Part shown: positions 342-20,381 of the stretch, in pieces | How positions within the stretch are numbered: position 1 is the stretch's first letter | Layout of the letters: every line of letters begins with the position of its first letter | Source of the DNA: a virus | Length of the DNA: 22,936 nucleotides | Reading direction: 5' to 3' (one strand) | Virus record (IMG/VR): IMGVR_UViG_3300030104_006545 | Span: 1 to 22,936 of that record | Notes under the pieces: model-generated | What the model saw: only the letters and a program-made list of their open reading frames with translations | Told to the model about the DNA's origin: nothing | The model's database searches: none | Position numbers and translations under genes: made by a program

Positions 342-3300
342 CGGAATCGAATGATCTTAGGGCAATTGCTCTGAAGTTCTTGACTCTTGGTGCTTCAGAT
401 TGGTCAGTTGATGACATGACTACTTTAATAGAGAATCCATTAAACTGTGGTGTGTTTTCTGCGGTATACTTATACTCGCTGAATCCATCTTCCTGACGAT
501 TTACGCCTACAAATTTATCTGGTGATCCATCATTATTGAATGGGAGATAAGTCTGCTGAATTTCATTTTCGTCATTTCTGAACAGTCTATAGAAGACCTT
601 GATGTTTGCATCACCCATTCTATGTGCGTCGAATTGAACAAATATGGAGTTAGAAATAAACTCAAGATTAATTCTCTTAGTCTCGTAAATTGAAGAGTGA
701 GGATCGAATCCAGGAAGATTAACTCTACTATCTCTAGTATAATCAATGACTGGGGCATTGATAAGATTACTGCTTGTAATGATATTAGTTGTATCAAGAT
801 CAACCATAGGTGATACATTCTCATCATCAGTTACTAGTAACAACTCCATTTCAAATGATTTTTCACCACTCATAAGTTCAGTTTCATTAACCTGTGACGC
901 GACTATTCTTGGTTTATCAAGACGATTTAACTTATTGATTGTAACAGATTCATAACCAGTATTGCTGAATGATGCCTCATTTCCACTTATACTCGTTCCT
1001 GTAGTTGTTCTAATTCTTGCAGAAACATTTGTTCCTGTAGGACTGACAAGATTGACTTTTGGATTGATGTACTCAAATGGCATGTTCTGTGATATCTGAA
1101 CACCAACTCCACCAACTGTTTTAGTTGTGTCAAATGCCTTAGTAGCATCAGAAAGACTTACATAGTAACTGTTGAATGTCTTCTCTCTTGGATCGATGTT
1201 GTGAATCTTGTTAATCTTGAGCAGAGATACGCCATTACACTCATACTTGAACACGTTTGCATTCTGGGCATGATTTGATAAGAGACTACCTGTGGTTGCA
1301 GAATTGAAGTTTCTTTCATTAATAGTAATTACGTCACCAGAGATTGTTTGGTAAGAAATAATCTCACTATCAATCACTATGTAACCAGTATTTGTAGCAC
1401 TAACTGCTGCTCCTTCAAAGGTAGCAAATCTAGATCCACTTCCAGCAGAAAGATTAATAGTTGAATCACCGTCATTGAGTGCCGCTGCCAGAGTTGTTGG
1501 GGCAACATCACTCTTAACATCCCTTATTTCCACTTTGTTTTGACTTGAATGCATGCCATGGTTGAAGTGACTAAACAACATGGTCTTACCGTCTCTGATT
1601 GGATCATCGTTGACGTATTCAATTGCTGGTTGAGTCGTGGAAGTTCCATTACTATCGACATAATTATATGCGCCAGTAGTAAAGTTGTTCTTGACATTAT
1701 CAACAACTATCATGTTAACAGTAGTTGAAACACCAACAGTAGCTCTTACACCACTTCCAGAAGCACCAAGTTGATTCATCAGTAGAAGGTCTCCGACCTG
1801 ATATCCAGCACCACCAGTAGCAACTGTAATAGTTTGAACTGCTCCATTATTAACAACAACATTTGCTGTCATGGATTGTCCGAAACCAGTGAGAGATTCA
1901 AATCCAATACCATTGTATGTAAAAGAACCAGATCCAGGTGTCAATCCAACACCAGATGTTGGTGAAACCAGTGCCGTAGTGAGACCTGCCTTCAGACCGC
2001 CACCAGTTGCAAAGATACTACCAGTATTTGTTCCTTGAATGACTTGATTACCAGCCACAAAATTCACAGTGGATGTATTGATACCAATAGTCTGTCTCTT
2101 AGCATATGCAGTAATTGGATTTTCCCTTCTAATAGTAACCTTAGGCAGTTCACTATTGTAGAATGAGACTGAAACAGGAGTGTTGGTTACAAACTTTGCC
2201 TTATTCAGTTTGAACTTAAGGTCTTCCAACTGACTTGGAGTCCATGTTGACTGGTTCTGTGACTTAAACAGTGAACCAAGGTATGGTTGCTTGTTATAGA
2301 CTGCCTTGAGCACGAGATCTTCTTCGCCCATTCTAGTGATGAATGCCAGATACTTCTCTGTGGGTGAAATAAGAACCAGAGCATATTCATATCCAGTTTG
2401 CAGATAAACAGGAGTATCAAACTTGAATTCTGTTGATACACTGCCATCTTCAGATAGATTGACATCATTTGCATCAATATTGACTTGACCGAATGGTACA
2501 ACGGTTACTGTTGGTGTACCATCTCTCATGGTTCTAATTTGAACCGTGACTGGAATTGTAGGATCTTTAGTCTTGAAGTATACTTCACCACCGGTTATGT
2601 ACACACCATCAGATACTGATCCATCATCATTATCAGCAGTAATCAAGAATGATTGTGCCAGAGGGTCAAAGTATTCACCAACAGTTGTCCTAGTTCCACC
2701 AGAAGAACTTCTTTCGGTTCTAGTTGTAGATCTTTCACTCTGAGTGAGTCTTACAGCATCAATAGCTTCAACAAATCTTCTGTCAACCTCTGGACTCTTG
2801 ACTGCCAAAACCTGTTCCTCATAACTCGTAGCGTATCCAGAAGACAGATACTCAGTTTCAGCAGAACTACCACCTGGATCCAATATAGGTGAATTGACAG
2901 GAGATGAAGTTATTATGATTGTGCTCGAACCAGTGGTAAACTTAGGATTAGCAGCAATAGTTGGATCTGGGATGTGAAGTGAATACTGTATTTCACCCTT
3001 TTCGTTAGACACTAACTGTATATCACCAATCTCTGCTTCTGCAGTTCCATCCTGATTGACAAGAACCATTCCTTTCTGAACATATCCAAGGTGATCTGGT
3101 TGTGTCTGATTAGAAAGGTCTGCGAGGTCAACATTGAGGAATTCTGAAGTTCCAGAATAAGAAGCACTACGTCCGGTGACTGTGGTTAATGGTGCATTAA
3201 ATGGACCAGTCTCATGGTTGGACTGTGCTACACGGAAGCGAACAGAAGGTGCTCCGATTACAGTTAAACCAATACTGGAAACAATATCACCAGTTTTGAA

Positions 3301-6300
3301 TGCACCCCTAATCATGGTGATTGGCAACTGCTTGGGGAAAGCAAATTGATTCATATCAACGCTTTCCATGAAGGTATAATACTTAGTACCTGGTTTCAGT
3401 TTCTGACCAGTTACATGGATATTTCTAGAGCGGCAGTTGTGAATGGTTTCAACACCAATAACTCTATCACCAAGACTAATCTCTTCTATTCCAGAGGAAA
3501 GTTCAAGACCAAATACGTTCTCAGTACCAGTTTCAAATGCAGTATCTGTCCAGTCATCTCGAATTGTAGATGTCCTGGTGGTTCTAGAACCTGTGGTTCT
3601 GATTCTACGAGCACCATTAGAATTTCTTTCAATTCTAGTTCTATCAATGTTTGAAGTCCTACTGCTACTGCTGAGTGTAGTACTACCGGTTAATTGAGTA
3701 TCAAAGACTCTATCATCACCGTTCCAGGTGAAGTCAGAAGAGTTCCACCAACTTGCTGCCATTCCACCATTCTCACGGTCTTCAACATTAAGCAATTCTG
3801 CCATACCGTTGAATACGGAATCGAATTGAACAATATCGGGAGTTTCAAGAACAATCTCTTCAACCCAATAGTCTGTGGCAGGAGACAAGTTGATTGATCC
3901 GGCATACAGTGCAATGTGATATGGATTCAGGTTTTCAGTTCTAGTTGCAAGTGGTTGGTCAATGAAGGGAACTTCTTCAAAGTTGAGAGTCATACCAGGA
4001 CCCCTTCTGGTCACATTGACATCAGAGAAGTCATTTGCCCAAGCATAATCAGCATCCGTGCGATTTGCTTCGGTTGTTACGGTTTCAAACTGCAGAGTAA
4101 CATTTCTTTCAGTAGAACGTGGGCGCAGTTCACCTCTCTTCAGGTCAATATCAAATAAAGATTCACCTTGAAGATTAGCACCATCGTGACTTCTGAAATT
4201 ATCTACAAAGAAACCAGATTTAAACTTATCTAATCCAGTGTTAGGATCTTTGACTGACAGATTCTTAGTATCAGTTTCAAGTAAAGACAGTGTAGTATAG
4301 TCTTCAAGAGTTTTAATTCTACTTTCAAGACCACCAATATCTTTCATGGTAAACCTCTTATGAGGAACCATTTTCAATCTGCAATCATAAGTTGCATTGA
4401 ACATGTATGGAGACAGGGTAAGAATAGCGACTTCAAATCCTTCGCTATTTCCAACTGGTATTTTTGGAAACTCTGATGGTTCTCCCTTTTTGAATGAGAA
4501 AGATCCATCCTTATTTAAATACAGTCTATCAATTCTTCCAAGGAAGAACGAATAGTCAACAACAAGGGTTCTATCAGATACAGCAGGTTCAGACTTTGAA
4601 TTTGTGAATACTCTCGATACAAATGCAAATGGTGAATCTGTCGAAGTCATGCTATATGCATTAACTCTGGGTCTTAGGTCAATGACATCAGATGCTCTTT
4701 TTCTACCAACAAATGGAATCTCTCTCATATAGTCGAGAGTATTATAACTGTTAACAGACTCTACCGTTCCAGATGATTCATCGGTATCAAGACGATCAAA
4801 GATAATTCTAAGTTGTCTAGTTGGTTCAGCAACACCTGGTCTTCTCTTGATTCTTGAGAAATCAGCATACTCAGTTCTCTGACCTTCATCTAACTGATAA
4901 TCAGCACTTACATTTCTATCACCAAGGAAAATGGTGGTAATGTTTGCAGTGATGCCAGAAGATTGCAGAGAAAGTGTCTCTAGTAACTCAAAATTCTTGT
5001 CGTTCTCATATACAAAGTTAAGTCTATTACCACTTACAACATCAACAACACGGGCAACTGCTCCTGAGTTTGCACCAATCATCTGTTCGCCAATTTTTAC
5101 ATTATTTGAGAATGAATCAGTTGCACTAGAAACAGTCAGTTGAGGAACATCTGCGGGAGCACTATCGTTGGACTCATATATGGCAAGAACTCTAGTAACG
5201 TCTGGTACATTCAGTGAAATGGTTTCATCTTGGACTCTTGTTCCAAATGGATACTGAGCGGACCAAGTTAATCCATCATCGAATGTTGTATTACCTGCAC
5301 CAGATCCCGGAGTTTTGGATCTTGATACAACTAAATTATTGCATCTTGAAACGTTCTTTGTCTTAGATGATATGGAAGACCTTCTACAGGTAACGGTAAG
5401 AATTGCACCTGACGCTGCCTTGCTAAGTCCCTTAATAGTAACTTCCTTAAGGTTAGTAGAAAGTGTAACCTGAGAGTCAAGAATGACTTCTTTGTGACCA
5501 TCAGCATAAGACAGAGTATAATTTTGCTGATTATATGGTTCTAAGAATAGAGTATCATCACCAAAAACACTTACATTAAAGGAGAGAGTTCGATTTGCTG
5601 GAACCTCAACTGTGCTTTGCTTTCTTACAATGTAACTGCTATCAAGAAGATTGACAGAAGAAACAACTTCGTTGGGGAGAGCAATAATTTTTCCTGAAGA
5701 AGCACCTTTTTCTATAAAACCTTGAGTAACATTCAAGTTCTGAACATTCTTGAGTTCATTGTCAGTACCAACATTAGTGGCCTTTACTGTGCCACCAGTA
5801 CATACACCAACTACTGTGCTAACACCAACCAGGTTGATTGAACCAGCATTAACTGCAGTTACTCTGTTGAATGTAGGCAGATTTTGACCTGGAATGGTAT
5901 ATGAAACAACATCACCAACTCTTACAGGAACATTTCTGAAGTCTCCAACAGATGGTGATGTTACAGTGGTGAGACCAGTAGCATCACCAGCAGAAGCACC
6001 ACTAATCTCGAATGACGAACCAGGTTCGATAAGATTGGTGGTCTGTTGCATTGCAACATTACATGCAAAGATGGTTCCCGAGGAAGTACCGATTGACTTG
6101 ACATCACGGATATCTTTGTTGCTAACTGATGTAATATTTCTACCTATAGAGATTCCATCAACCTCAATTGGTTCGTTGATTTGGAACTCACCTGATACAT
6201 CTGTAATAGTAAGAGTCGTTCCTGCTGTAACTGCACTCTTAAGGAATCCCTCTGCTCCACTGAACACACCTTTAACGTGTGCAGATTGGGGAGCAGTAAT

Positions 6301-9288: not shown

Positions 9289-9307
9289 GTCTGTCCGATT
9301 TTTTGAT

Positions 9308-9315
9308 TATTTATA
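9308..9315 (-). promoter_or_regulatory. T4-like late promoter TATAAATA before gp8
   Basis: The minus strand carries an exact TATAAATA in the 47-bp gap between the giant gp7-like gene and gp8, ending 19 bases before the gp8 start codon. In T4 this octamer at -10 is sufficient for late transcription by host RNA polymerase carrying gp55/gp33 with the gp45 clamp. It would start the gp8-DUF4815-77aa unit independently of the very long upstream gene. Confidence 0.85.
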
Positions 9316-9335: not shown

Positions 9336-12300
9336 TTAATAGAAGGATGCCAGTTGACTAGTTCTAGAAACATGTGCTGAAGTACTAACGCCAGAAAGAG
9401 GATCATGAGATTGGAATCCCAATGTTTGACCATTTCTGCTTCCTGTATTTATCTTACCCCAACTAAACGTTCCATACTGATAAAATTCAGGATCAGTATT
9501 GATTCCTGCTACAGAATGAACGTTTGTTGCAACCTGAACTCTATCTGTTCCAGCAAAACCAGTAACTTTTGCAGCACGATAAACATTATTAAGGAAACTA
9601 GAACCAACTGCAACAATATTTGCTTGACTACCATCAATTGAGGTAAGACCAGCGCCAGGACCGATAGTAGTATTTCTAATTACGAAGTAGTCGCCTGTTG
9701 AAATACCAGTTGTTTGAATCGTATTTGGTTCTCCACCATCAGAATATATTGATTGATGTGGGTAGAAGTCAAATTTAAGTGTTGGTAATGAATTTTCTGC
9801 ACCTGACTCACCTGAGTCAAACTCTAGAATATCGGTAATCTTTCCAAAGTCACCCTCATACGAAACTTCCTTAATCGTTTCGACAACTGGTAATGTGGCG
9901 TCTGTAACCGCTAAACCTACGAATGTGACATTATTGATAGACTGTGCAAGGTTGTCAACTTCGTCAAATGTCCAGACGTTTTCAGCATGTATCACAGTGT
10001 CCGTAGGACCAACAGATTGAATGATCTGAGTTGATGGATAATACAATGATGCATTAGAATTTCTTGACTTAGAAATCCTAAGACCATCAATAACAGTATC
10101 AGAAGTTTGCTTGGTCCATTCTATGGGTCTCAATAACTTATCTTCACTGTTAATACCAACTCCAGTGTAAGTTTCAGTCTCAACAGTATCAGCAGCAATC
10201 AATGCATAGATGGTTCTTCTTTCCTGACTGGTCACATCATTTTGACGTTCAAAAACATTAAACTTGTTGCCATCTGCGTCTACCTTTTCAACTTCAAAGT
10301 AAGACTCTTTTTGAAGTCTTAATTCATCACCTTCTTTAATTGTTTGATCAATATCAATTTCATCAAAGTCTAATGATGAACCAGCATAGAAGTATAGTCT
10401 AAATGAACTATTTGCTTTTGGTGCTTCTCTAAACTTCAATCTTGTACCACCACTGAACTCATAATCAATTCCTGGTCTCTGAAGAATATCATTGATGAAA
10501 ATCAACATATTGTTTTGAAGTATGATTCCAGATCCTTCCCTAGCAACAATACTGTAGAATTCTCTTTCAGTTTCTGTTCTAGTGATAAGGAATTGAGTTT
10601 TAGCACCATTAAACTGGTTGCTAAAGTCATCCATCTCAAGAAGTTGTCCGAATGTCCATCCAGAGAACTTATCTTGGAACTTGTTGCTAACAGTAGCAGT
10701 GAAAGGAATAGTGGTGATTCCAGGTCCCTGGAATGGAAGACCCTGAAGTTCAAGAACATCACCTTCTTCATATCCAACACCACGGTTTGACATGTTGAAA
10801 GTAACGACACTACCGCCAGTCCCAACAACAACATCCATTTCAGCACCAGAACCAGTTCCACCAGAAAGTGTAAGACCCTTATAAGGACTTGGTGGTGGTG
10901 CAGTGACAAAATCTAAAGTTGTAGATATGCCTGTGCTTGTATAACCAGTTCCTGGATTTGTAATGGTTATTGCAGTGACTATTCCTGCTGTTATTGAAGC
11001 AGTAAAGGTTGCATCTTCACCACCACCAAATCCAACATTAAGAGTTATTGTATCTGTAGTAAATGATGCTATTTCTAGTGTTTGACCAGCAGCTGGATCA
11101 GTTGATCTTGGGTATGAATGGTCAGATGTAAACCCATCTCTGGAACATCTGAATACTAATGAATCGTTATCAAGAGTAACTGTATTACCAAAAGTTAATC
11201 CATGATTAGCAATTGTCAATGTCAATAGACCAGTTTCAGAAATATAAGTTGCATTTGTTGGAGTTAATTGTGATCCACCTGTTACATTTACAGAATTAGC
11301 GGCAGAGGATACGAAAGTGTGTATAAAGTGCCTATCAGTTGCTGCAATAGAAACTATTGGTGCTGATATGTATCCTTGACCTCCAGTTACAATACCAACT
11401 GATTGAACTGTTCCTGCTGCTGATACTACTGCATGGAATACTGCCCTACTAGGAACCTGATAACCACTACTAACTCCAACTGTGAACTCATTGATTATGC
11501 CACCCTGTGGGAGATCTCCAACTTGTGGTGTTCCAGTAAAGTCAATTGCTTCACCAGTAGCAATCTTTTCAATTTCATAATCAGATCTAGAAGGAGCACC
11601 AATTGGTGAAAGGTATGGTTTCTGGAAGACATTATTGATCAGAACTACACCATGACTAGTGGTAAGACCAGTTACTGCAACACCACTACTGATTATCGAG
11701 AACTGACCAGTTGTGCCATTGAAAGAATTTGAGATATCATCGAAAATTGTATTTTCATTATACGACAATCTATAGAAGATTCTTCCTGAGAAAGTTGATC
11801 TGGTTGTTAATGATCCAATACCTGCAGGTCCATATGGTGCATCACTGAAGTAAATCTTACCCTGTTTGATTCTGTAATCGCCTGTGACGACGCTACTAGC
11901 AGCACCGACAGTATGTGCAGTAGCAACAGTACCCAGTGTTCCACGTTGAACATTAAGAACGTTACCAGCGCCTACCAGATCCACTTTGACAATCTCTCCA
12001 TCTCCAAATCGGAGTAGAGACTTACCTTGAATCTTTGATACATCGCTGACTGTAATCTGAGTTGAACCAATTCCAACTGCTTCAGACATAGTGATGGCAA
12101 CACCTACTGGTTTTACCGCAATAGGACTTTGAATAATATTATCAACGGTGATTAAACTCCTGGTAGTTGCAAGGTCACCATCTGTTGAGAAGGATTGGGT
12201 AAGACCAATTCCAGTTGTATTAGTGAATGTTACGAATCTTCCCAGTGCTACGTCTGCTTGACTGATAGCAACTTTAAATGTATCTTTAGTGAGACTAGGA

Positions 12301-15300
12301 TCACTGGGGAAAGCAACTACAAATACTTTATCTGGCAGAAGAGTGGTAAGACCAATACCAGGAACAGAAGTAGAACCAATACTCAGACGAGATCCAGTAT
12401 TGATACCAGCATTTGTTGGGTCATACAGAAGTTCTTCACCAGTGTTAAACTGATGATCTGTAACTGTAATTGTGCTACCAGCAATGCCAGTTACAGGATT
12501 AACGGAATGGTGAAGTAATGATTTGCTATCACTGAATATAGTGAAAGTGCTCAGACCAACAAGTTGACCAGCAGAGTTTCCAACGCCATTGAATTGAGGA
12601 CTGAGATCATCGATCATCAGAACTTTATTGGTTATGGATTCGTTGTAGTCAGTAATTATCTTAGAATCAAATGTAATGACCTTTGAAAGAGCTGTTGTAT
12701 CTGTGTCTTCTTTTGCAAGATCATAACTTATTCTTGTATGCACAGACGAAATACTATCAATATCAACATTGAGGTTGAGTTCTGTATCTGCAATTGATAC
12801 ATTTGCTGTCTTTGATGGTAATGAAATAAGTTGTAAGTCTGAGAAATTCTTATAACCAGCAGTGTGGTCTAGACTATCAACCGTCTCTTTCCAATCATCA
12901 AGTGCAACTTCACCACGAATACTATAAGCAAACCTTTGATAGTAATCATTATCGTGAAGTCTTTGTAGACTATCATTCAACTTACCAACATCATCCTTCC
13001 ACATTCCATTATCACAAGATACACTTCCCACATTAAAATCAAAGTCAAATGAAGTTACTTCTGCAATAGTTGCTTTAGCGCCACCAAGGGAACCAACAAC
13101 GATTGCATCTTCAGTAAATTTACCATTAACTTTATTCAGTCTCAATATACCTGATTCCTCATCCCAACCATTCTTTGCTACAATACCAAATATACTTCCA
13201 TCACTAGAAACAGCAACCTTTTCACCTTCTGAGAATCTTATGGGTGCAAATTCTGGTTTAAATGTTGCCAGGTCATCTACTTTGATAATTCTACCAAATT
13301 GTGCATTCTGAGCGATATTGTAGGTGCCGCCAGTATTACCTAAACCAGTGATTGGATAACTAATACTCTCAACTCCATTAGTAGTATTGGTTGTAGATAT
13401 ACCAAAGATTGCATAATTGTAATCACTTGAATTGTAACCATCTGCTGTATCACCATCAGTAATTTGGACATTTTCTACAAAGATTTTATCTCCAGTCTGG
13501 AATGGGAAAGGATTAGTAACGCCAAATCCAACATTTGGTGCTCTAAGGAAGAGTTGATTTACTCCATTACTGGAAACAGCATTAACAACACCAATTCCAT
13601 TTGAGTTCTCAGTTGCAACAATCCTGAGATCTTCTTCCAGATTACTATCACTACTAATAACTTTAACATCAGATACAGCACCACCACCTAATGTTGTCCG
13701 TGTAACGATGTTATTATTTCCGATTGCAATTACTTTTGGTGCAACGTTGTAATCATTTCCAGCAGTAACAATACCAACTCCTTTTAACGATCTGATATTC
13801 TTAAGTCTCAGGATAAGAGAACTATCTACTTTTGGTGCGATAGTTTTATCTACTGGGAATTCAATACCAGGACTAACAACCACACCATCTATAACTGCTC
13901 CGATTTCGGTATTAGTTAATTCAAGTTCTGCAGAAATACCTGTAGTAGTCCCTATGGATGTAATTGCTGGGAATTCTTTGACATTGACGCCACCATTTAC
14001 AATCTTGGTAGAATGGATACCACCAATTGCAGTCAGAGAACTAGTAGAATAGAATCCAGTGCTATATCCCGCAGGAACATAAGAATTTGTCTCAGCAGCA
14101 CCAACCAAGGTGAATCCGAAGGAATAATCTGTGCCTATTCCAATCGATCTAACTTTATAGTTCTGATTGAATTTGGACTCTACTATACGGATATTAGAGT
14201 AATTGCTTACAGATTCATCTGCAGAATTTGGATATGTACCTGTAAATGTGCTATCAACTCCTTCAAGTCTGTAATAAAAACTACCTGGAAGATTTTTGTT
14301 AATATCAAATATGATTTGCGAGGCATCAGAACCATCACCGATTACTCCTTCCTTCTTAAACAGAGTGGAATCATACCTAGATTGGAACTCTTTATCGTTA
14401 TAGAAATTGATATTATATCCAGAAAGACTCGTATCTCCGGTCTTCAGAGCAAATCTTCCACCATTGATAACATCGATCTTCGGATTTACCTTTGCAATTT
14501 CATGGGTTCCATGTCCTTGCTCTGTTATAACAATATTCTGGAATGGGAATGCTCTTGAATCAACAAAATTATCTGCAAGTCTAAACGTATTATCGTCAAT
14601 CTTAATTACATAATACTCTCTATTGTCCTGAAGAGGTGTTGCAACACCAACAATATTTGTATAAATTACAAGATCACCAGTATTCAATCCGTGATCCACA
14701 ATTGTAATATTAGAAGTAGTTACAGTTGCAATCCCAGCAGGAGCAAAAGTCTTAGGATCAACAACCAGTTTCTTCAGATAATCATTAAACTTGAATACAA
14801 ACTGTTGAACTTCATTAGGTGTAATGTGAAGTCTAACTTCATCTCCCTTTTCTATTCCATGTGCTTCACTAGTTTCAACCCTAGCAGATACCTTTTTGAC
14901 AATACCAGTGATATTATCTTTTACTTGTGATAATGTGTGATTGGTTCCGTCAGTAAGTTGGTTGAAGTAGAGAGTAGAGGTAATTCCAGCAAATGCCTTA
15001 GAAGTCGCAATACCAAGGAATTCATTTGATATTCTTACTGCAAAGAGACCAGTTGGGGGAAGGAAGAATGGATCTGCCAATGTATCAGTCACAGCGGCAC
15101 GAACTGTTCCTCCAACAGAAACATACTTCAGTTCATCTCCAGTTTGGAATCTATGACCTGGCAGGTAGATTGCACGTTCTGGAATATTAACTGTAACAGG
15201 TATACTTCCAGCAGTTCCTACAACAACTGAGGTATAAGTAGAACCTATACCGACAGCAGATGCACCAAAGTTTTCTACTTCTGGAAGTTCTATATTCTTA

Positions 15301-18300
15301 TTCTGCACCTTCTTATCGAGAAGGAAGGTAAATGTCACAGGTTGCTTGACTACCAGATCTCCCACATTGTGACTGCTTCCAGTGCTATCATTAACGACTC
15401 TTGTAACTCTATATTTGTTATTGACGACATCAACGCCAACAATCTCCATTAACTCACCGCTAATCTTAACGATATCACCTTTTTCAAATTTCTCTGTAAA
15501 TACAGAAGCAGACAGTTCGATACTAGTACTAATACCTGTTGTAGCAACAACAGGAATAGCAATTTTCATGTTGGTTAGAACTGTGCCTACTCCAACAGTG
15601 GGGAAACCTTCAAGGTTCTTGTATGATGCGGAACCAATACCAGAGACTTCGATGATATCACCATCAGAGAAACCATGTGGTGTGGTAGTCACACCGGTTA
15701 CAACCTGACCTTTAACACTAAAGATAGTATTTTCTAATACAGTATCACTAGTTCCGATAGAAACAATATTTTTGCCTAATACCTGTTCAACCTCTACATC
15801 AATTGATGGTTCATTGAAATTGACTTGCTCTCCAACTCTATAGTTAACACCAGATTCAAGCACAATGACATCATCTATTCTAGACGCTCTAACTTGATCT
15901 ACGTTAACTAGCACGTCAGATCTCATTGCATCTTGTAATGCTGGATATTCTCTGGTTGGAGTATTCACTCCAAGGTGAGTTACATTTCTCTTATAAGAAC
16001 CACTATTCAGAATTGAATCCCTCTGATCAGTATTTTGTTCGTAATTGAAAGATTCTGTTTGATTATGGTGTGACTTTGTGATATATGGATATGCAAGTTC
16101 TTTAGAAGCATCTAGAGTGGAGAAGTATGCATATGTTCCATTGGGATATTCTGGGGTCTGACAGAATCTACCATTATACTCGTCAAGAGTTTTAAGGGTA
16201 GCGGTTCCTGTGGATCTTTTATAGACAAAATCTTGTGTGAAATCTCCAGCATCAAATCCAACAGATGGTCTGAGTAATGCAGAAGATTCAACATCAAGAT
16301 CATAACCTGAACGCATTCTTGCAATTCCACCATTTGCCGCACCATCAAATTTGGGATTTGCATAACCATATGGACCATAGATCGGATTACCATCATATGC
16401 CCATCCAAGTATTGGAGAGTGATCTAATTCCTGACCTATACCACCGGTCTTTTCTGTTCCATCAGCAAGAGTATTGTCTCCCAGTCTTGTACGATAGAAT
16501 GCTCCGGGATAGAAGGAAACCAACTTGGATTCTTTTTCACTAAATCCAGAATTCATCTGAATCATTTCCCGATTGAGTCTATTATTTTTGGGAGCTGATG
16601 AATTGATTTCAAGTGCTTCTCTGTATCTCTGAACATTGTTAAATGTCCATTTATGAACTTCTGCTCCTAACAGTGCATCAGTACCAGATGGAATTACTTC
16701 GACTGTTGTACTATCCTGTTTATATCCTTGTCCTGGGTTAACAATAGTAACTCCAGTAATAGAACCATCCACAATAGTAACAGTCAGTTCTGCTAGAACT
16801 CCTTCACCAGTAACCTTAATTGTAGGTGGACTGGTATAATTCAAACCTGATTCTACAACAAATGCTCCAGTGATCTGCCCATCAACAACAATAGTTTTGA
16901 TGATTGCATTTCTTCCTGTCTTTACCTCAACAATAATATCTTTCTGATAGTTCATCACATTGGATACACCATACCCAACACCACCATTTCTGATGAATAC
17001 GTTTTCAAGACCTCCACGAACTACAGGAACGCCAATAGCGTTATAGTATGAAGGAGTGACATCAGTATTACCAGTGGAAACGATACCATTAATCGAAACA
17101 GTAATGTCTGGATACTTGAACGTATGTGTGCCTCCACCCACGTCGGTCATGTTTACATAGTTCTTATTATCATAATTGACGCTACTGATAGTGGTTGCTG
17201 TTCCTGCTTCACTCAGTTGGAATCTGTCTTCATCCAGAACAGTTACCTTATAATTTAATCCTGTCGATAGTCCAGCAATAGTTTGACCATCAAATGTATA
17301 TTCAATGTTATCACCACTCTTGAAACTGTGATTTCTTGCATAGATGTAATTCTTTTGAGTATTGATACCAACGAAATTTTTGTAGATATCTCGTTGGAAG
17401 AATGGTGGCCATGCAACAGCATCTACAACTACTTTCTTATTGGAGAAATCATCAGTAGAAGATATAATTCTGATATCATCAATAACTCTTCTATTCACTG
17501 TTGACGTAAATTTATGAACTCCATTACCAAAGGCATTCATATTGATCACAGTCTTAGCAAGTGCATTCTTCTTTGAGGTAGCAAGTGAGACTTGTGTATC
17601 ATTGATTTTTGCAATAAAATATCTTGCACCAGATGTTAATCTATCTGTAGAGAATCCAACAGAAGTACTTCCAGCACCAATAGGATTTCCTGTGGTGGTG
17701 TATATAATTTCTTCTCCATCTGCGAATCTATGATCAGATGAGAAGGTGATTATATCTGATTCCTGATTATCTCGTGCATTATCAGCAAAAGATTCAGAAT
17801 AAGACAATCCTCTCATTCTTGCTTCGGCAATTGCCTGTGTTCCATTTCCTCCAGAAATTTTTACAGTAGGGGTATCTGCATAATTGAAACCAGGAGCGGT
17901 AACAATAATATCTTCAATCTTTCCTTTAAGTTGACCTATAAGATCAGCACCAGAACTTCCTGCAGTATCTGCAACTCCAATCTGGGGTGCATTTACAATA
18001 TCGTAACCAGTTCCAGCATTTAGAATATTAATATTGTCTATCTGTCCATAATAGATTGAATCATTTGAGATTGGTGAATCGAATTCAACACCATTTAAGG
18101 CAACACCGATTGGTCCAATAATATCATTATGCTCAAGTGCTGGTTTTGGTTCTCTATTGATTTTCTTGAAATGATTCTGATTAAGTAGAGTTTTTCCACG
18201 TAAAGAATCTGGAGTCAGTTTATACTTACTATCTGTTGAACCACTAGAGATACCAACATAAATTTCACCATCAAGAGAAGAACGACTGAATGCTAACTTT

Positions 18301-20381
18301 AGAGTATTATCATCAACTACATGAGCGTAATACGCTCCTTCTAATACAGTGCTAATTCCAGCAGTTGTCTCAAAGTATATCTTCTCACCTCTTTCAAAAT
18401 TGTGAGCATTGATGGTAATCTCATCAGTTGTATCGTTTATATTAAGATGCTCAAATGTCTTGGATCTATCTGAAACTGTTACACTATCGTAACCAGGGAG
18501 TCCCGAGAATGCAACGTATGCGTTATTAACTGCATCGACAAAGGTATTTTGAATATTTCCTAAAATATCGTTTGGATTGATATTTGAGTTTGCAAACTTG
18601 AGTTTCTTCTTAAAAAGATATTTTTCAGTTACGTTAAGAGAGGTGCTTAAACCAACAAGACTAAACTGCCTTCTATTGTTTATAGCACCAACTGTGGCAG
18701 ATGACACAAGACTATTATCATTCTGAAGTATAATGTCTACTTTGTCATCTACATGTAAATGGTGATCAAGTCTAGTTTTAACATCACTTGATCCAATAAC
18801 TTCATCAACCTGTTGAATTACTACATTGTTATAGAACCATCTGTTGAATCTTACATCATCTTCTTCCACCTTTTCGCCAAGGTGTTTTACGGTCAGTTCG
18901 TCTCCTTTTCTAAACTGACTAGAAACATTTCCAGTAGATGAAACTCCTATGATTGTGCCAACAACTCGCATCGTAACGAGTCGGTCCATATCATTGCCCT
19001 CATAACCAAAGACATATTGACCATCAGTGATAGGATCATTATCCGAAAGCATGGTAGACAATCCTACACATCCGTAGAACTGGTTAGCACTCTTACTTGT
19101 ATAAGAGACTTCTACTAAATTACCCTTATCAGGATTCAAGAATGAACCACTGTCTGGGAATCCAAGAGTAGAGTCTACAGTCAGGGTTGCAAGTGAAGAA
19201 CCAACACCTAAGACTCTGGTTTGCTTACTAACATTGAATGTATTCTGAATCGCATTTTTGGGGAAGTATAACTTATGATAATACTTGTTGTTTAGAAGTA
19301 TTGCTTCAACTCTTGAAATAACACCCGATGCAGTTGGATTATCAACCGATCCTTGTAATATAGTTGTCTCCCCAAGTTGGTTCGCATCTCCACTGATAGT
19401 ATCTACGACAATAACATCAGAAAGTGAGTAATCGGCAGATGATGCTTGGATTGTATTCTCAAAAGGTTTTACAACATCAACATACTTTCCAAACAGAACA
19501 GCAAAGAGGATCTTCAGTGAAGTATCAGTTCCCTTTGAACTATAGAAATCCCTTGCTCTTGAAAGGATATTATCAATGTTGACGCTTTGGAACTTTCTAT
19601 CTTCGATTCCTGGTAAGAATAATTTTTTATACTTTTTGAAGAATTCTGCTAAGAATACCAAACTGAGATTGATAACTGGTGTTCCAGCATCATGGAATTC
19701 CGACTGACTGACATTAAAGTTTAAAAACTCACTACTGACATCATCAATACCAGAAAAACCTCTGATACATCCAGTAAAGGCAAAATTGGTGGCAGTGGGG
19801 AGAGTTGCACCTAATGGATTTGCTTCTGTAATATCTAATACGTCATCAAGAGAATCTTCGTTCTCAGAAATCGTAATTGTGTTAGAATCGATAACTTCGG
19901 TGACAAAATAAACCTGACCAGCAACAACACTTGAAAATGCTGTATCAAAAACGATAGTTTGTGCCCTAAACGAATCTAAACCAATAGTAGACGTTAGTTT
20001 GATGGTATTAAGAGTAGGATCAACCTGAGTGACCTTTTGAGCAAAAGAAGTTTTACCAGTGTAGGTAAAAATCTCACTTCCAATCTTTGCGAGTCCATTT
20101 TTTTCGATAAAACCAACATGATTGGTAACTTCGATCAGATCTTCATCGTTTGCGATGAATCTGGTCAGTGTTGGAGTAGTTTGAGTATATTTGACATCTA
20201 CAATACTCTGAATATTCTTTAAATCTTGAATTCTCTCTCCAAGATCAATAGTTCCGTACTCATGTTGCTGAGACAGATAGTATTGCTCCAAAAACTCTTT
20301 GAAGAGTGGATTGTCATCTAAAATAAATTCTGGAAGTTGACTTTCCAGAATATTGGAGATTTTTACTTTACTATCTGACAT
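9336..20381 (-). CDS. giant gp7-like baseplate wedge structural protein with YHYH motif
   Basis: This is a 3,681-residue uninterrupted frame, over three times T4 gp7 (about 1,030). Residues about 10-330 resemble the C-terminal part of T4 gp7: LPEFILDDNPLFKEFLEQYY (about 15-34), then DFYSSKGTDTSLKILFAVLFGKY (276-298, the DFYS.KG...LF.VL signature), followed by a beta-rich LGETTILQGS region. The remainder is a mosaic. HG[FL]xxGD repeats lie near 660, 880, 1015, 1568, 1739, 1838, 1895, 2640 and 3056. GxGY-type repeats lie near 789, 825, 1127, 1170, 1209, 1500, 2192, 2992, 3137 and 3194. A YHYH-like motif (GWAYDGNPIYGPYGY) is near 1326, and D.S..FNG modules are near 2590, 2880 and 3250. There is no signal peptide or obvious membrane segment. 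Its place between gp6 and gp8 matches the wedge order gp25-gp6-gp7-gp8. The gp7 link rests on remembered motifs and synteny; a host-recognition role for the expansion is inference. Confidence 0.85.
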   Translation of the reverse strand: MSDSKVKISNILESQLPEFILDDNPLFKEFLEQYYLSQQHEYGTIDLGERIQDLKNIQSIVDVKYTQTTPTLTRFIANDEDLIEVTNHVGFIEKNGLAKIGSEIFTYTGKTSFAQKVTQVDPTLNTIKLTSTIGLDSFRAQTIVFDTAFSSVVAGQVYFVTEVIDSNTITISENEDSLDDVLDITEANPLGATLPTATNFAFTGCIRGFSGIDDVSSEFLNFNVSQSEFHDAGTPVINLSLVFLAEFFKKYKKLFLPGIEDRKFQSVNIDNILSRARDFYSSKGTDTSLKILFAVLFGKYVDVVKPFENTIQASSADYSLSDVIVVDTISGDANQLGETTILQGSVDNPTASGVISRVEAILLNNKYYHKLYFPKNAIQNTFNVSKQTRVLGVGSSLATLTVDSTLGFPDSGSFLNPDKGNLVEVSYTSKSANQFYGCVGLSTMLSDNDPITDGQYVFGYEGNDMDRLVTMRVVGTIIGVSSTGNVSSQFRKGDELTVKHLGEKVEEDDVRFNRWFYNNVVIQQVDEVIGSSDVKTRLDHHLHVDDKVDIILQNDNSLVSSATVGAINNRRQFSLVGLSTSLNVTEKYLFKKKLKFANSNINPNDILGNIQNTFVDAVNNAYVAFSGLPGYDSVTVSDRSKTFEHLNINDTTDEITINAHNFERGEKIYFETTAGISTVLEGAYYAHVVDDNTLKLAFSRSSLDGEIYVGISSGSTDSKYKLTPDSLRGKTLLNQNHFKKINREPKPALEHNDIIGPIGVALNGVEFDSPISNDSIYYGQIDNINILNAGTGYDIVNAPQIGVADTAGSSGADLIGQLKGKIEDIIVTAPGFNYADTPTVKISGGNGTQAIAEARMRGLSYSESFADNARDNQESDIITFSSDHRFADGEEIIYTTTGNPIGAGSTSVGFSTDRLTSGARYFIAKINDTQVSLATSKKNALAKTVINMNAFGNGVHKFTSTVNRRVIDDIRIISSTDDFSNKKVVVDAVAWPPFFQRDIYKNFVGINTQKNYIYARNHSFKSGDNIEYTFDGQTIAGLSTGLNYKVTVLDEDRFQLSEAGTATTISSVNYDNKNYVNMTDVGGGTHTFKYPDITVSINGIVSTGNTDVTPSYYNAIGVPVVRGGLENVFIRNGGVGYGVSNVMNYQKDIIVEVKTGRNAIIKTIVVDGQITGAFVVESGLNYTSPPTIKVTGEGVLAELTVTIVDGSITGVTIVNPGQGYKQDSTTVEVIPSGTDALLGAEVHKWTFNNVQRYREALEINSSAPKNNRLNREMIQMNSGFSEKESKLVSFYPGAFYRTRLGDNTLADGTEKTGGIGQELDHSPILGWAYDGNPIYGPYGYANPKFDGAANGGIARMRSGYDLDVESSALLRPSVGFDAGDFTQDFVYKRSTGTATLKTLDEYNGRFCQTPEYPNGTYAYFSTLDASKELAYPYITKSHHNQTESFNYEQNTDQRDSILNSGSYKRNVTHLGVNTPTREYPALQDAMRSDVLVNVDQVRASRIDDVIVLESGVNYRVGEQVNFNEPSIDVEVEQVLGKNIVSIGTSDTVLENTIFSVKGQVVTGVTTTPHGFSDGDIIEVSGIGSASYKNLEGFPTVGVGTVLTNMKIAIPVVATTGISTSIELSASVFTEKFEKGDIVKISGELMEIVGVDVVNNKYRVTRVVNDSTGSSHNVGDLVVKQPVTFTFLLDKKVQNKNIELPEVENFGASAVGIGSTYTSVVVGTAGSIPVTVNIPERAIYLPGHRFQTGDELKYVSVGGTVRAAVTDTLADPFFLPPTGLFAVRISNEFLGIATSKAFAGITSTLYFNQLTDGTNHTLSQVKDNITGIVKKVSARVETSEAHGIEKGDEVRLHITPNEVQQFVFKFNDYLKKLVVDPKTFAPAGIATVTTSNITIVDHGLNTGDLVIYTNIVGVATPLQDNREYYVIKIDDNTFRLADNFVDSRAFPFQNIVITEQGHGTHEIAKVNPKIDVINGGRFALKTGDTSLSGYNINFYNDKEFQSRYDSTLFKKEGVIGDGSDASQIIFDINKNLPGSFYYRLEGVDSTFTGTYPNSADESVSNYSNIRIVESKFNQNYKVRSIGIGTDYSFGFTLVGAAETNSYVPAGYSTGFYSTSSLTAIGGIHSTKIVNGGVNVKEFPAITSIGTTTGISAELELTNTEIGAVIDGVVVSPGIEFPVDKTIAPKVDSSLILRLKNIRSLKGVGIVTAGNDYNVAPKVIAIGNNNIVTRTTLGGGAVSDVKVISSDSNLEEDLRIVATENSNGIGVVNAVSSNGVNQLFLRAPNVGFGVTNPFPFQTGDKIFVENVQITDGDTADGYNSSDYNYAIFGISTTNTTNGVESISYPITGLGNTGGTYNIAQNAQFGRIIKVDDLATFKPEFAPIRFSEGEKVAVSSDGSIFGIVAKNGWDEESGILRLNKVNGKFTEDAIVVGSLGGAKATIAEVTSFDFDFNVGSVSCDNGMWKDDVGKLNDSLQRLHDNDYYQRFAYSIRGEVALDDWKETVDSLDHTAGYKNFSDLQLISLPSKTANVSIADTELNLNVDIDSISSVHTRISYDLAKEDTDTTALSKVITFDSKIITDYNESITNKVLMIDDLSPQFNGVGNSAGQLVGLSTFTIFSDSKSLLHHSVNPVTGIAGSTITVTDHQFNTGEELLYDPTNAGINTGSRLSIGSTSVPGIGLTTLLPDKVFVVAFPSDPSLTKDTFKVAISQADVALGRFVTFTNTTGIGLTQSFSTDGDLATTRSLITVDNIIQSPIAVKPVGVAITMSEAVGIGSTQITVSDVSKIQGKSLLRFGDGEIVKVDLVGAGNVLNVQRGTLGTVATAHTVGAASSVVTGDYRIKQGKIYFSDAPYGPAGIGSLTTRSTFSGRIFYRLSYNENTIFDDISNSFNGTTGQFSIISSGVAVTGLTTSHGVVLINNVFQKPYLSPIGAPSRSDYEIEKIATGEAIDFTGTPQVGDLPQGGIINEFTVGVSSGYQVPSRAVFHAVVSAAGTVQSVGIVTGGQGYISAPIVSIAATDRHFIHTFVSSAANSVNVTGGSQLTPTNATYISETGLLTLTIANHGLTFGNTVTLDNDSLVFRCSRDGFTSDHSYPRSTDPAAGQTLEIASFTTDTITLNVGFGGGEDATFTASITAGIVTAITITNPGTGYTSTGISTTLDFVTAPPPSPYKGLTLSGGTGSGAEMDVVVGTGGSVVTFNMSNRGVGYEEGDVLELQGLPFQGPGITTIPFTATVSNKFQDKFSGWTFGQLLEMDDFSNQFNGAKTQFLITRTETEREFYSIVAREGSGIILQNNMLIFINDILQRPGIDYEFSGGTRLKFREAPKANSSFRLYFYAGSSLDFDEIDIDQTIKEGDELRLQKESYFEVEKVDADGNKFNVFERQNDVTSQERRTIYALIAADTVETETYTGVGINSEDKLLRPIEWTKQTSDTVIDGLRISKSRNSNASLYYPSTQIIQSVGPTDTVIHAENVWTFDEVDNLAQSINNVTFVGLAVTDATLPVVETIKEVSYEGDFGKITDILEFDSGESGAENSLPTLKFDFYPHQSIYSDGGEPNTIQTTGISTGDYFVIRNTTIGPGAGLTSIDGSQANIVAVGSSFLNNVYRAAKVTGFAGTDRVQVATNVHSVAGINTDPEFYQYGTFSWGKINTGSRNGQTLGFQSHDPLSGVSTSAHVSRTSQLASFY
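10420..11745 (-). repeat. duplicated D-x-S-x-x-FNG modules near the gp7-like C-terminus
   Basis: Two long copies can be aligned by eye. Copy one (about residues 2879-2937) has FDDISNSFNGTTGQFSI, then VVLINNVFQKPY, then SDYEIE. Copy two (about 3247-3320) has MDDFSNQFNGAKTQFLI, then LIFINDILQRPGIDYEF and KFREAP. A shorter fragment with IDDLSPQFNG is near residue 2590. The pattern resembles a common phage tail module in which QFNG is followed by a LxxNxxxQxPxxxY hairpin. Its specific role is unknown. Confidence 0.6.
10745..11405 (-). repeat. second cluster of GxGY beta repeats in the gp7-like protein
   Basis: Three further copies near the C-terminus: IVTGGQGYISAPIVSI (about 2993), ITNPGTGYTSTGI (about 3138) and MSNRGVGYEEGDVLEL (about 3196). 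Each follows a short Gly-containing beta segment such as AAGTVQSVG, ITAGIVTAI or GTGGSVVTF. An HGL repeat (near residue 3056) lies between the first and second. Confidence 0.65.
16340..16425 (-). other. YHYH-like domain core within the gp7-like protein
   Basis: Residues about 1320-1346 contain DHSPILGWAYDGNPIYGPYGY-type sequence (HSP, GWAYDG, PIYGPYGY). This matches the core of the YHYH family as I recall it, a domain found in secreted bacterial and eukaryotic proteins of mostly unknown function. The flanking region continues with RMRSGYDLDVESS, and further on with YNGRFCQTPEYPNGTYAYFSTLD and ITKSHHNQTESFNYEQ, suggesting a folded domain of roughly 200-250 residues (about 1280-1480). Function is unknown; a carbohydrate- or surface-binding role is speculation. 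Confidence 0.7.
16690..17000 (-). repeat. cluster of GxGY beta repeats in the gp7-like protein
   Basis: Three consecutive units of the protein-level repeat x-G-x-[GN]-Y: IRNGGVGYG (about 1129), VVESGLNYTSPPTIKV (about 1174) and IVNPGQGYKQDSTTVEV (about 1211). Each sits after a VxGxIxxxxI strand pair such as VDGSITGVTIV. The pattern (strand, PGxGY turn, strand) is a recurring phage structural module and also occurs in the two downstream genes. Confidence 0.7.

Follow-up and report, generated by a model that had tools for sequence, protein, structure and literature searches.

What is a protein of 3,681 residues doing between gp6 and gp8 in a T4-like baseplate operon, and is it gp7? T4-like cyanophages count among the most abundant viruses in the sea. 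The locus lies in a 22.9-kb IMG/VR virus fragment (22,936 nucleotides, referred to here as the window). It has been stated that gp7 is absent from cyano- and pelagimyophages and that VrlC stands in as its replacement (PMC7029224). An earlier note on the window proposed that the protein is a gp7-like wedge protein, expanded by modules added after its conserved part. The reading favoured here, to which we give a probability of about 0.78, is that the window comes from a T4-like marine cyanophage and encodes its gp7 orthologue, with a split core and extra parts that would act as an outward scaffold and dock fibres.

The open reading frame and its surroundings are as the earlier note described them. 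ORF calling and translation recover the frame on the minus strand (a detail absent from that note), with an ATG at 20381, a stop at 9336-9338 and a product of computed pI 4.8. Matches to PF04965, PF21379/PF21387, PF09215 and PHROGs 261, 219 and 438 bear out the synteny gp25-gp6-X-gp8, where X is the giant gp7. The full operon order is gp25-gp6-giant gp7-gp8-VrlC (Table 1), and the intergenic gaps are 1-4 bp save for 47 bp ahead of gp8. The slot between gp6 and gp8 is likewise that of gp7 in P-SSM2, P-HM1 and S-SM2. The giant size is not an assembly artefact, because 41 relatives of 2,600 aa or more, mostly from separate metagenomic contigs but including that of S-SSM7, align over the full length. 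The short contigs of the near relatives carry no psbA. The gene appears only in a more distant relative, on its 247-kb contig, so a picocyanobacterial host for the window phage is likely rather than proven.

Table 1. Genes of the window and segments of the giant gp7 (positions are those of the window; A, FCCH-like barrel; B, GxGY beta module).
Feature	Residues or length	Position	Strand	Basis
gp25 (sheath initiator)	132 aa	22298..22696	-	PF04965 and PHROG match
gp6 (baseplate wedge)	637 aa	20385..22298	-	PF21379/PF21387 and PHROG match
Giant gp7 (baseplate wedge)	3,681 aa, 397 kDa	9336..20381	-	ORF, PHROG 2885, T4 gp7 homology
N-terminal helical element, putative equivalent of the core-bundle helices of T4 gp7 (helical domain, 643-689)	1-65	20187..20381	-	
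Beta module between N-terminal helices and KGT element	66-225	19707..20186	-	alignment
Helical DFYxSKGT...LF.vLFG element, counterpart of T4 gp7 ~724-760	226-310	19452..19706	-	hhalign, hmmsearch
Beta region, counterpart of T4 gp7 domain V start	311-460	19002..19451	-	hhalign
Insertion of beta modules between gp7 halves (~1,950 aa)	461-2410	13152..19001	-	collinear second element
A1	640-727	18201..18464	-	HMM self-comparison
B1, common to gp8	776-850	17832..18056	-	HMM self-comparison
A2	872-960	17502..17768	-	HMM self-comparison
A3	1004-1090	17112..17372	-	HMM self-comparison
B2, multiple units; strongest gp8 match (gp8 207-286), E 1.6e-13	1115-1250	16632..17039	-	
YHYH-family module	1320-1425	16107..16424	-	PF14240 E 1.3e-21, profile positions 92-184 of 193
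B3, common to VrlC	1497-1575	15657..15893	-	HMM self-comparison
A4	1729-1820	14922..15197	-	HMM self-comparison
A5	1877-1965	14487..14753	-	HMM self-comparison; sub-threshold Pfam E1_FCCH
B4	2107-2255	13617..14063	-	HMM self-comparison
Second conserved gp7 element, DNDYYQRFAYSI...VDSLDHTAGYKNFSD, counterpart of T4 gp7 ~864-889	2411-2600	12582..13151	-	hhalign
C-terminal arm	2601-3681	9339..12581	-	variable; separate gene in S-SSM7
Arm modules: A6; B; C pair	2632-2720; 2965-3032, 3100-3160; 2803-2937/3175-3309			HMM self-comparison
gp8 (baseplate wedge); GxGY module at residues 207-290	516 aa	7738..9288	-	PF09215 and PHROG
VrlC / DUF4815 structural protein	2,467 aa	331..7734	-	PF16075, PHROG 358

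The case for gp7 begins in the N-terminal region. The signature DFYSSKG...LFAVLF, given in the earlier note, is real and reads DFYSSKGTDTSLKILFAVLFG at residues 278-298. Side by side, T4 gp7 has DFYSTKGIEASYKFLFKVLYNEEVEI at ~734-759 and the giant gp7 has DFYSSKGTDTSLKILFAVLFGKYVDV at 278-303. The proposed common ancestry with the C-terminal region of T4 gp7 is borne out by profile-profile comparison, PDB search, reciprocity between genomes and PHROG assignment. When a profile of 75 cyanophage N-termini was compared with one of eight T4-type gp7s, hhalign returned P 2.3e-11 over residues ~269-386 of the giant gp7, reaching T4 ~830. The score of this pair was 89.5, about 3.4 times the best of 100 column-shuffles (26.2). 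With the cyanophage N-terminal family profile, an hmmsearch of 177,635 PDB sequences put T4 gp7 first (E 9.8e-7) and the gp7 of a second phage next (E 5.7e-6), with no other significant match. These matches need profiles: as a single sequence the giant gp7 finds nothing in the PDB up to E 10. PHROG 2885, 'baseplate wedge subunit', matches the giant gp7 with 2185.6 bits (best stretch 196-2608), and T4 gp7 itself matches both PHROG 2885 and the compact-gp7 PHROG 26741.

A separate gp7 elsewhere in the genome would have spoken against this assignment. As the window is a fragment, the search was made in genomes of relatives, and none was found in five complete cyanophage genomes or the 247-kb cyanophage contig. 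In five of these six the T4 gp7 profile matches at one place each, always within the giant gene; in the P-HM1 genome it finds no match. Conversely, the cyanophage profile matches the T4 genome inside gene 7 only.

Structure prediction for this region is consistent with the same identity. An AlphaFold model of residues 1-960 has a pLDDT of 59.8, falling below 50 in the core helices, and in a Foldseek search of 350,542 PDB chains phage gp7s rank first and second (E 8.6e-4 and 1.7e-3, with low TM-scores). This fold match gives weak support to the gp7 identity. A full-length model of the compact marine gp7 (874 aa, 39 close sequences) reached a pLDDT of 45.4, which makes it unusable for the joint core elements, and the compact gp7 family profile alone finds no match in the PDB. 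The first helices are harder to place than the KGT element. The direct match of residues 1-65 to T4 651-689 falls in the correct place and is not significant. The gp7 of Cr30 provides a bridge: the cyanophage profile covers it from residue 1 and the T4 profile covers it from T4 649. Within the beta module that follows, an insertion of ~85 aa at residues ~110-195 (window ~19797-20054, minus strand) is specific to the lineage, occurring in close relatives only and being larger in one of them (L019). Occupancy of residues 101-200 is 0.43 among 41 aligned homologues.

Where does the rest of gp7 lie? The second conserved element (YYQ..H-GY) lies at residues 2411-2511, with its core at ~2480-2511, some 2,100 residues downstream of the first, and its T4 counterpart is SYYVMKIKSNLPSSRWKSDVIRFVHPVGF. 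The direct alignment with T4 covers a short stretch of about 30 columns, with hhalign P 5e-5 and a score of 44.8 vs 27.7 for the best shuffle; repeated with a broader alignment, the test gave 35.7 vs 21.7. Matches to the gp7s of Yut3, Cr30, phiM12 and Mosig are stronger (P 2.5e-8 to 7e-12). The gp7s of Yut3 (503 aa), Cr30 (767), Mosig (874), phiM12 (1,007) and S-CREM2 (1,937) carry the two elements in this order too; in S-CREM2 the second element lies at 1882, 56 residues from the C-terminus. At the level of homology, residues 1-460 and 2411-2600 thus correspond, in order, to T4 gp7 ~649-830 and ~864-889 (domain V of T4 gp7 spans 766-861).

Since both gp7 elements are present in order and lie ~2,100 residues apart, the halves of the core have been moved apart, and it is not the case that modules were added only at the end. 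These alignments show a gp7 core split by an insertion of ~1,950 residues and followed by an arm of ~1,080 residues. The earlier proposal that the extra residues follow the conserved part is therefore right for the final arm and wrong for most of the extra mass, which sits inside gp7. Its other observation, that the N-terminal two thirds of T4 gp7 have no equivalent, stands: T4 residues ~1-640 give no significant match. No counterpart of T4 domain VI was found in the giant gp7 either. Neither part is defining for the wider gp7 class, because compact orthologues such as that of Yut3 are also without matches to them.

The inserted modules were delimited by HMM self-comparison of the giant gp7, which reveals six FCCH-like (A) modules, several GxGY (B) beta modules and a duplicated C-terminal unit. 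The count of about 3,300 residues of repeat modules given earlier is too high, as detectable copies account for ~1,370 residues out of the ~3,220 that follow residue 460. The insertion as a whole is well kept, with an occupancy of 0.85-1.0 across the 41 homologues. In the structure model, A1 aligns across 84 columns with Uba1, an enzyme that contains an FCCH domain, at a probability of 1.0. GxGY modules are also found in gp8 (residues 207-290) and in VrlC (~1950-2030), which makes them building blocks common to three large baseplate proteins. On sequence grounds this points to module exchange among adjoining baseplate genes. In VrlC, residues 1949-2030 and 2077-2142 hold GxGY and 'EIITYT'-type modules in common with the giant gp7.

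One module of the insertion belongs to the YHYH family, which has been proposed, as a prediction, to be a tail-associated metal-dependent hydrolase (PMC7824862). It is kept in most but not all relatives. The YHYH motif is present in two bacterial proteins (L190 and L191), has the variant form YHHH in two others (L192 and L195) and is absent from the phage copies. An active metal hydrolase was accordingly downgraded as a candidate. The profile match covers only the positions given in Table 1, and the conserved YHYH motif and histidine triad of a metal-dependent YHYH enzyme were not recovered. Because the motif is missing, the module is probably structural or binding and not catalytic. Long phage-type ORFs with a YHYH/GxGY arrangement also occur on a 188-kb contig of Nonlabens xiamenensis (L197) and on marine MAG contigs (L185-L189). 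This suggests that such bacterial and archaeal contigs are prophage, or phage contigs binned with hosts.

The arm varies in length. Counted from the YYQ motif, it ranges from 176 residues (L031) and 324 (the L063 group) through ~1,200 (the window) to ~2,700 (P-SSM2). It is also separable: in S-SSM7 (L083/L206, record 57561-76655) the core (3,007 aa) and the arm homologue (3,001 aa) are encoded by two genes with a 341-aa gene between them, and the record labels both as gp7. Among close relatives the identity of the arm is 65% and that of the insert 63%. Arm content does vary, and residues 3001-3120 are mostly absent elsewhere. The idea of a hypervariable receptor-binding arm was rejected, because among these relatives the arm is not faster-evolving overall.

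What if VrlC has replaced gp7 after all, and the giant product is an unrelated structural protein? The published statement is in favour of this, and T4 gp7 has hardly any direct BLAST-level match to cyanophages. However, VrlC is a different gene, lying downstream of gp8 in P-HM1, S-SM2, phiM12, Mosig and the window (the slot is annotated as VrlC in P-HM1 and S-SM2), and the giant protein bears both gp7 elements. Since the T4 profile leads to the giant gene in five of six cyanophage genomes or contigs, and the cyanophage profile leads back to gene 7 of T4, replacement by VrlC is already largely refuted and seems scarcely credible. The comparisons contradict the statement in PMC7029224 and argue that gp7 is retained in cyano- and pelagimyophages.

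The giant protein might still be something other than one large wedge protein. Perhaps it is a host-recognition or fibre protein with a captured gp7-like anchor, its extra mass mainly binding receptors or cutting the cell surface by way of a YHYH hydrolase. The hydrolase prediction would fit such a role, as would the variable length and content of the arm and the fact that the separate arm protein of S-SSM7 also matches the 'tail fiber' PHROGs 5342 and 17885. However, the YHYH motif of the bacterial relatives is missing, the arm is about as conserved as the insert and so not hypervariable overall, and a Pfam search finds no known receptor-binding fold; we consider this unlikely. It is also conceivable that one polypeptide is cut after translation into a gp7 of ~2,600 residues and a free arm. 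In S-SSM7 the genes divide naturally after the second gp7 element, which invites this thought, yet no cleavage site was identified and the fusion is kept in one frame in most relatives, so that cleavage appears decidedly improbable.

How might a gp7 orthologue with a split core work? By analogy with T4, XM1 and AlgoCIS, the two conserved elements would assemble with a pair of gp6 subunits to form the core bundle and trifurcation unit of the wedge. In T4, XM1 and other contractile tails these parts hold the sheath initiator gp25, and they would do so here. From this core the insertion would loop outward as a rigid scaffold of beta modules. Together with the arm, gp8 and VrlC, which contain the same modules, it might build an outer baseplate that docks the receptor-binding fibres and passes the attachment signal to gp6-gp7 and gp25. 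There are precedents. XM1 anchors its tail spikes on inserts within its gp7 orthologue (PMC10457771), and in AlgoCIS an inserted domain of the wedge protein forms a spike cage (PMC8894135). XM1-like spike holding, an AlgoCIS-like cage or both would fit, and on these analogies an outer scaffold that docks fibres is favoured. We infer the six copies of the protein, the extra layer and the function of this layer; the literature searched yielded no baseplate structure for any marine T4-like cyanophage. A more tentative proposal is that marine cyanophage baseplates have a large additional shell or cage, of ~2.4 MDa given six copies, which extends from the middle of gp7, and that the insertion point is a site of evolutionary growth, where beta modules, some common to gp8 and VrlC, are added or removed to adapt the outer baseplate to a host.

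It is clear that giant gp7s as such are not new. Records of many cultured cyanophages have carried such annotations for a long time, so that the identification itself is no surprise. Annotated examples are those of P-SSM2 (5,195 aa), P-HM1 (4,446), S-SM2 (4,156), S-SCSM1 (4,120) and S-SSM7 (3,007). The window protein shares family, gene slot and overall plan with the cyanophage 'gp7 baseplate wedge initiator' of PHROG 2885 and is 45% identical to the gp7 of S-SSM7 over the aligned N-terminal region. It differs from the annotated giants in its own length and module set and in the extra ~85-aa insertion near residue 110, shared only with close uncultured relatives. Compared with T4 gp7 (PDB 5iv5, 5hx2), it has the same gene order and, in the same order, the KGT element, the start of domain V and the YY..HP-GF element. 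However, it is without ~1-640 and domain VI and has the ~1,950-residue insertion and the long arm. In the compact gp7s of Stenotrophomonas phage Yut3, Caulobacter phage Cr30, Pelagibacter phage Mosig and Sinorhizobium phage phiM12 (PF23786), which occupy the same gene slot, both elements flank a module-bearing middle as well, but this middle is roughly 200-700 aa and most have little or no arm. At the other extreme, XM1 gp17 (242 aa), the minimal wedge protein of a simple contractile tail, is ~15-fold smaller than the window protein. The NCBIfam tail-domain profile TIGR02242 matches the helical element weakly in 17 of 26 members (E up to 1, best 1.5e-4); the window protein scores 14.7 bits at the KGT element, below the curated cut-off of 51.85. 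In the AlgoCIS Alg11 spike cage, too, a core-bundle wedge protein carries a large inserted domain, and a cage role here is an analogy only. That a gp7-slot protein is part of the virion is documented for S-CREM2, where the 1,937-aa product was detected by 91 unique peptides at 27.2% coverage (PMC10665884, Table 3); its gene was verified as the gp7-slot orthologue.

What is new here is the split-core architecture and the evidence against the claim that VrlC replaces gp7. In the open-access papers searched, neither the split core nor the division of the S-SSM7 gp7 into core and arm genes turned up. If gp7 is retained as argued, this and the entry point of the ~3,000 extra residues correct the published statement that it is missing. 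Domain boundaries are now concrete enough for cryo-EM modelling and truncation, and the middle of gp7 as a growth site for outer-baseplate modules becomes a testable idea.

Two smaller observations concern annotation and expression. The gp7 of Mosig (L103 9545-12169, 874 aa, annotated as hypothetical) has its best match to PHROG 3465, 'head closure Hc2'. For this protein the label looks wrong, and common GxGY modules may be the cause. In the window, TATAAATA, the T4-type late-promoter consensus, occurs at 9306-9313 on the minus strand, ~18-25 bases upstream of the gp8 start. It sits in the sole gap of the operon longer than 4 bp, a position suggestive of a candidate late promoter.
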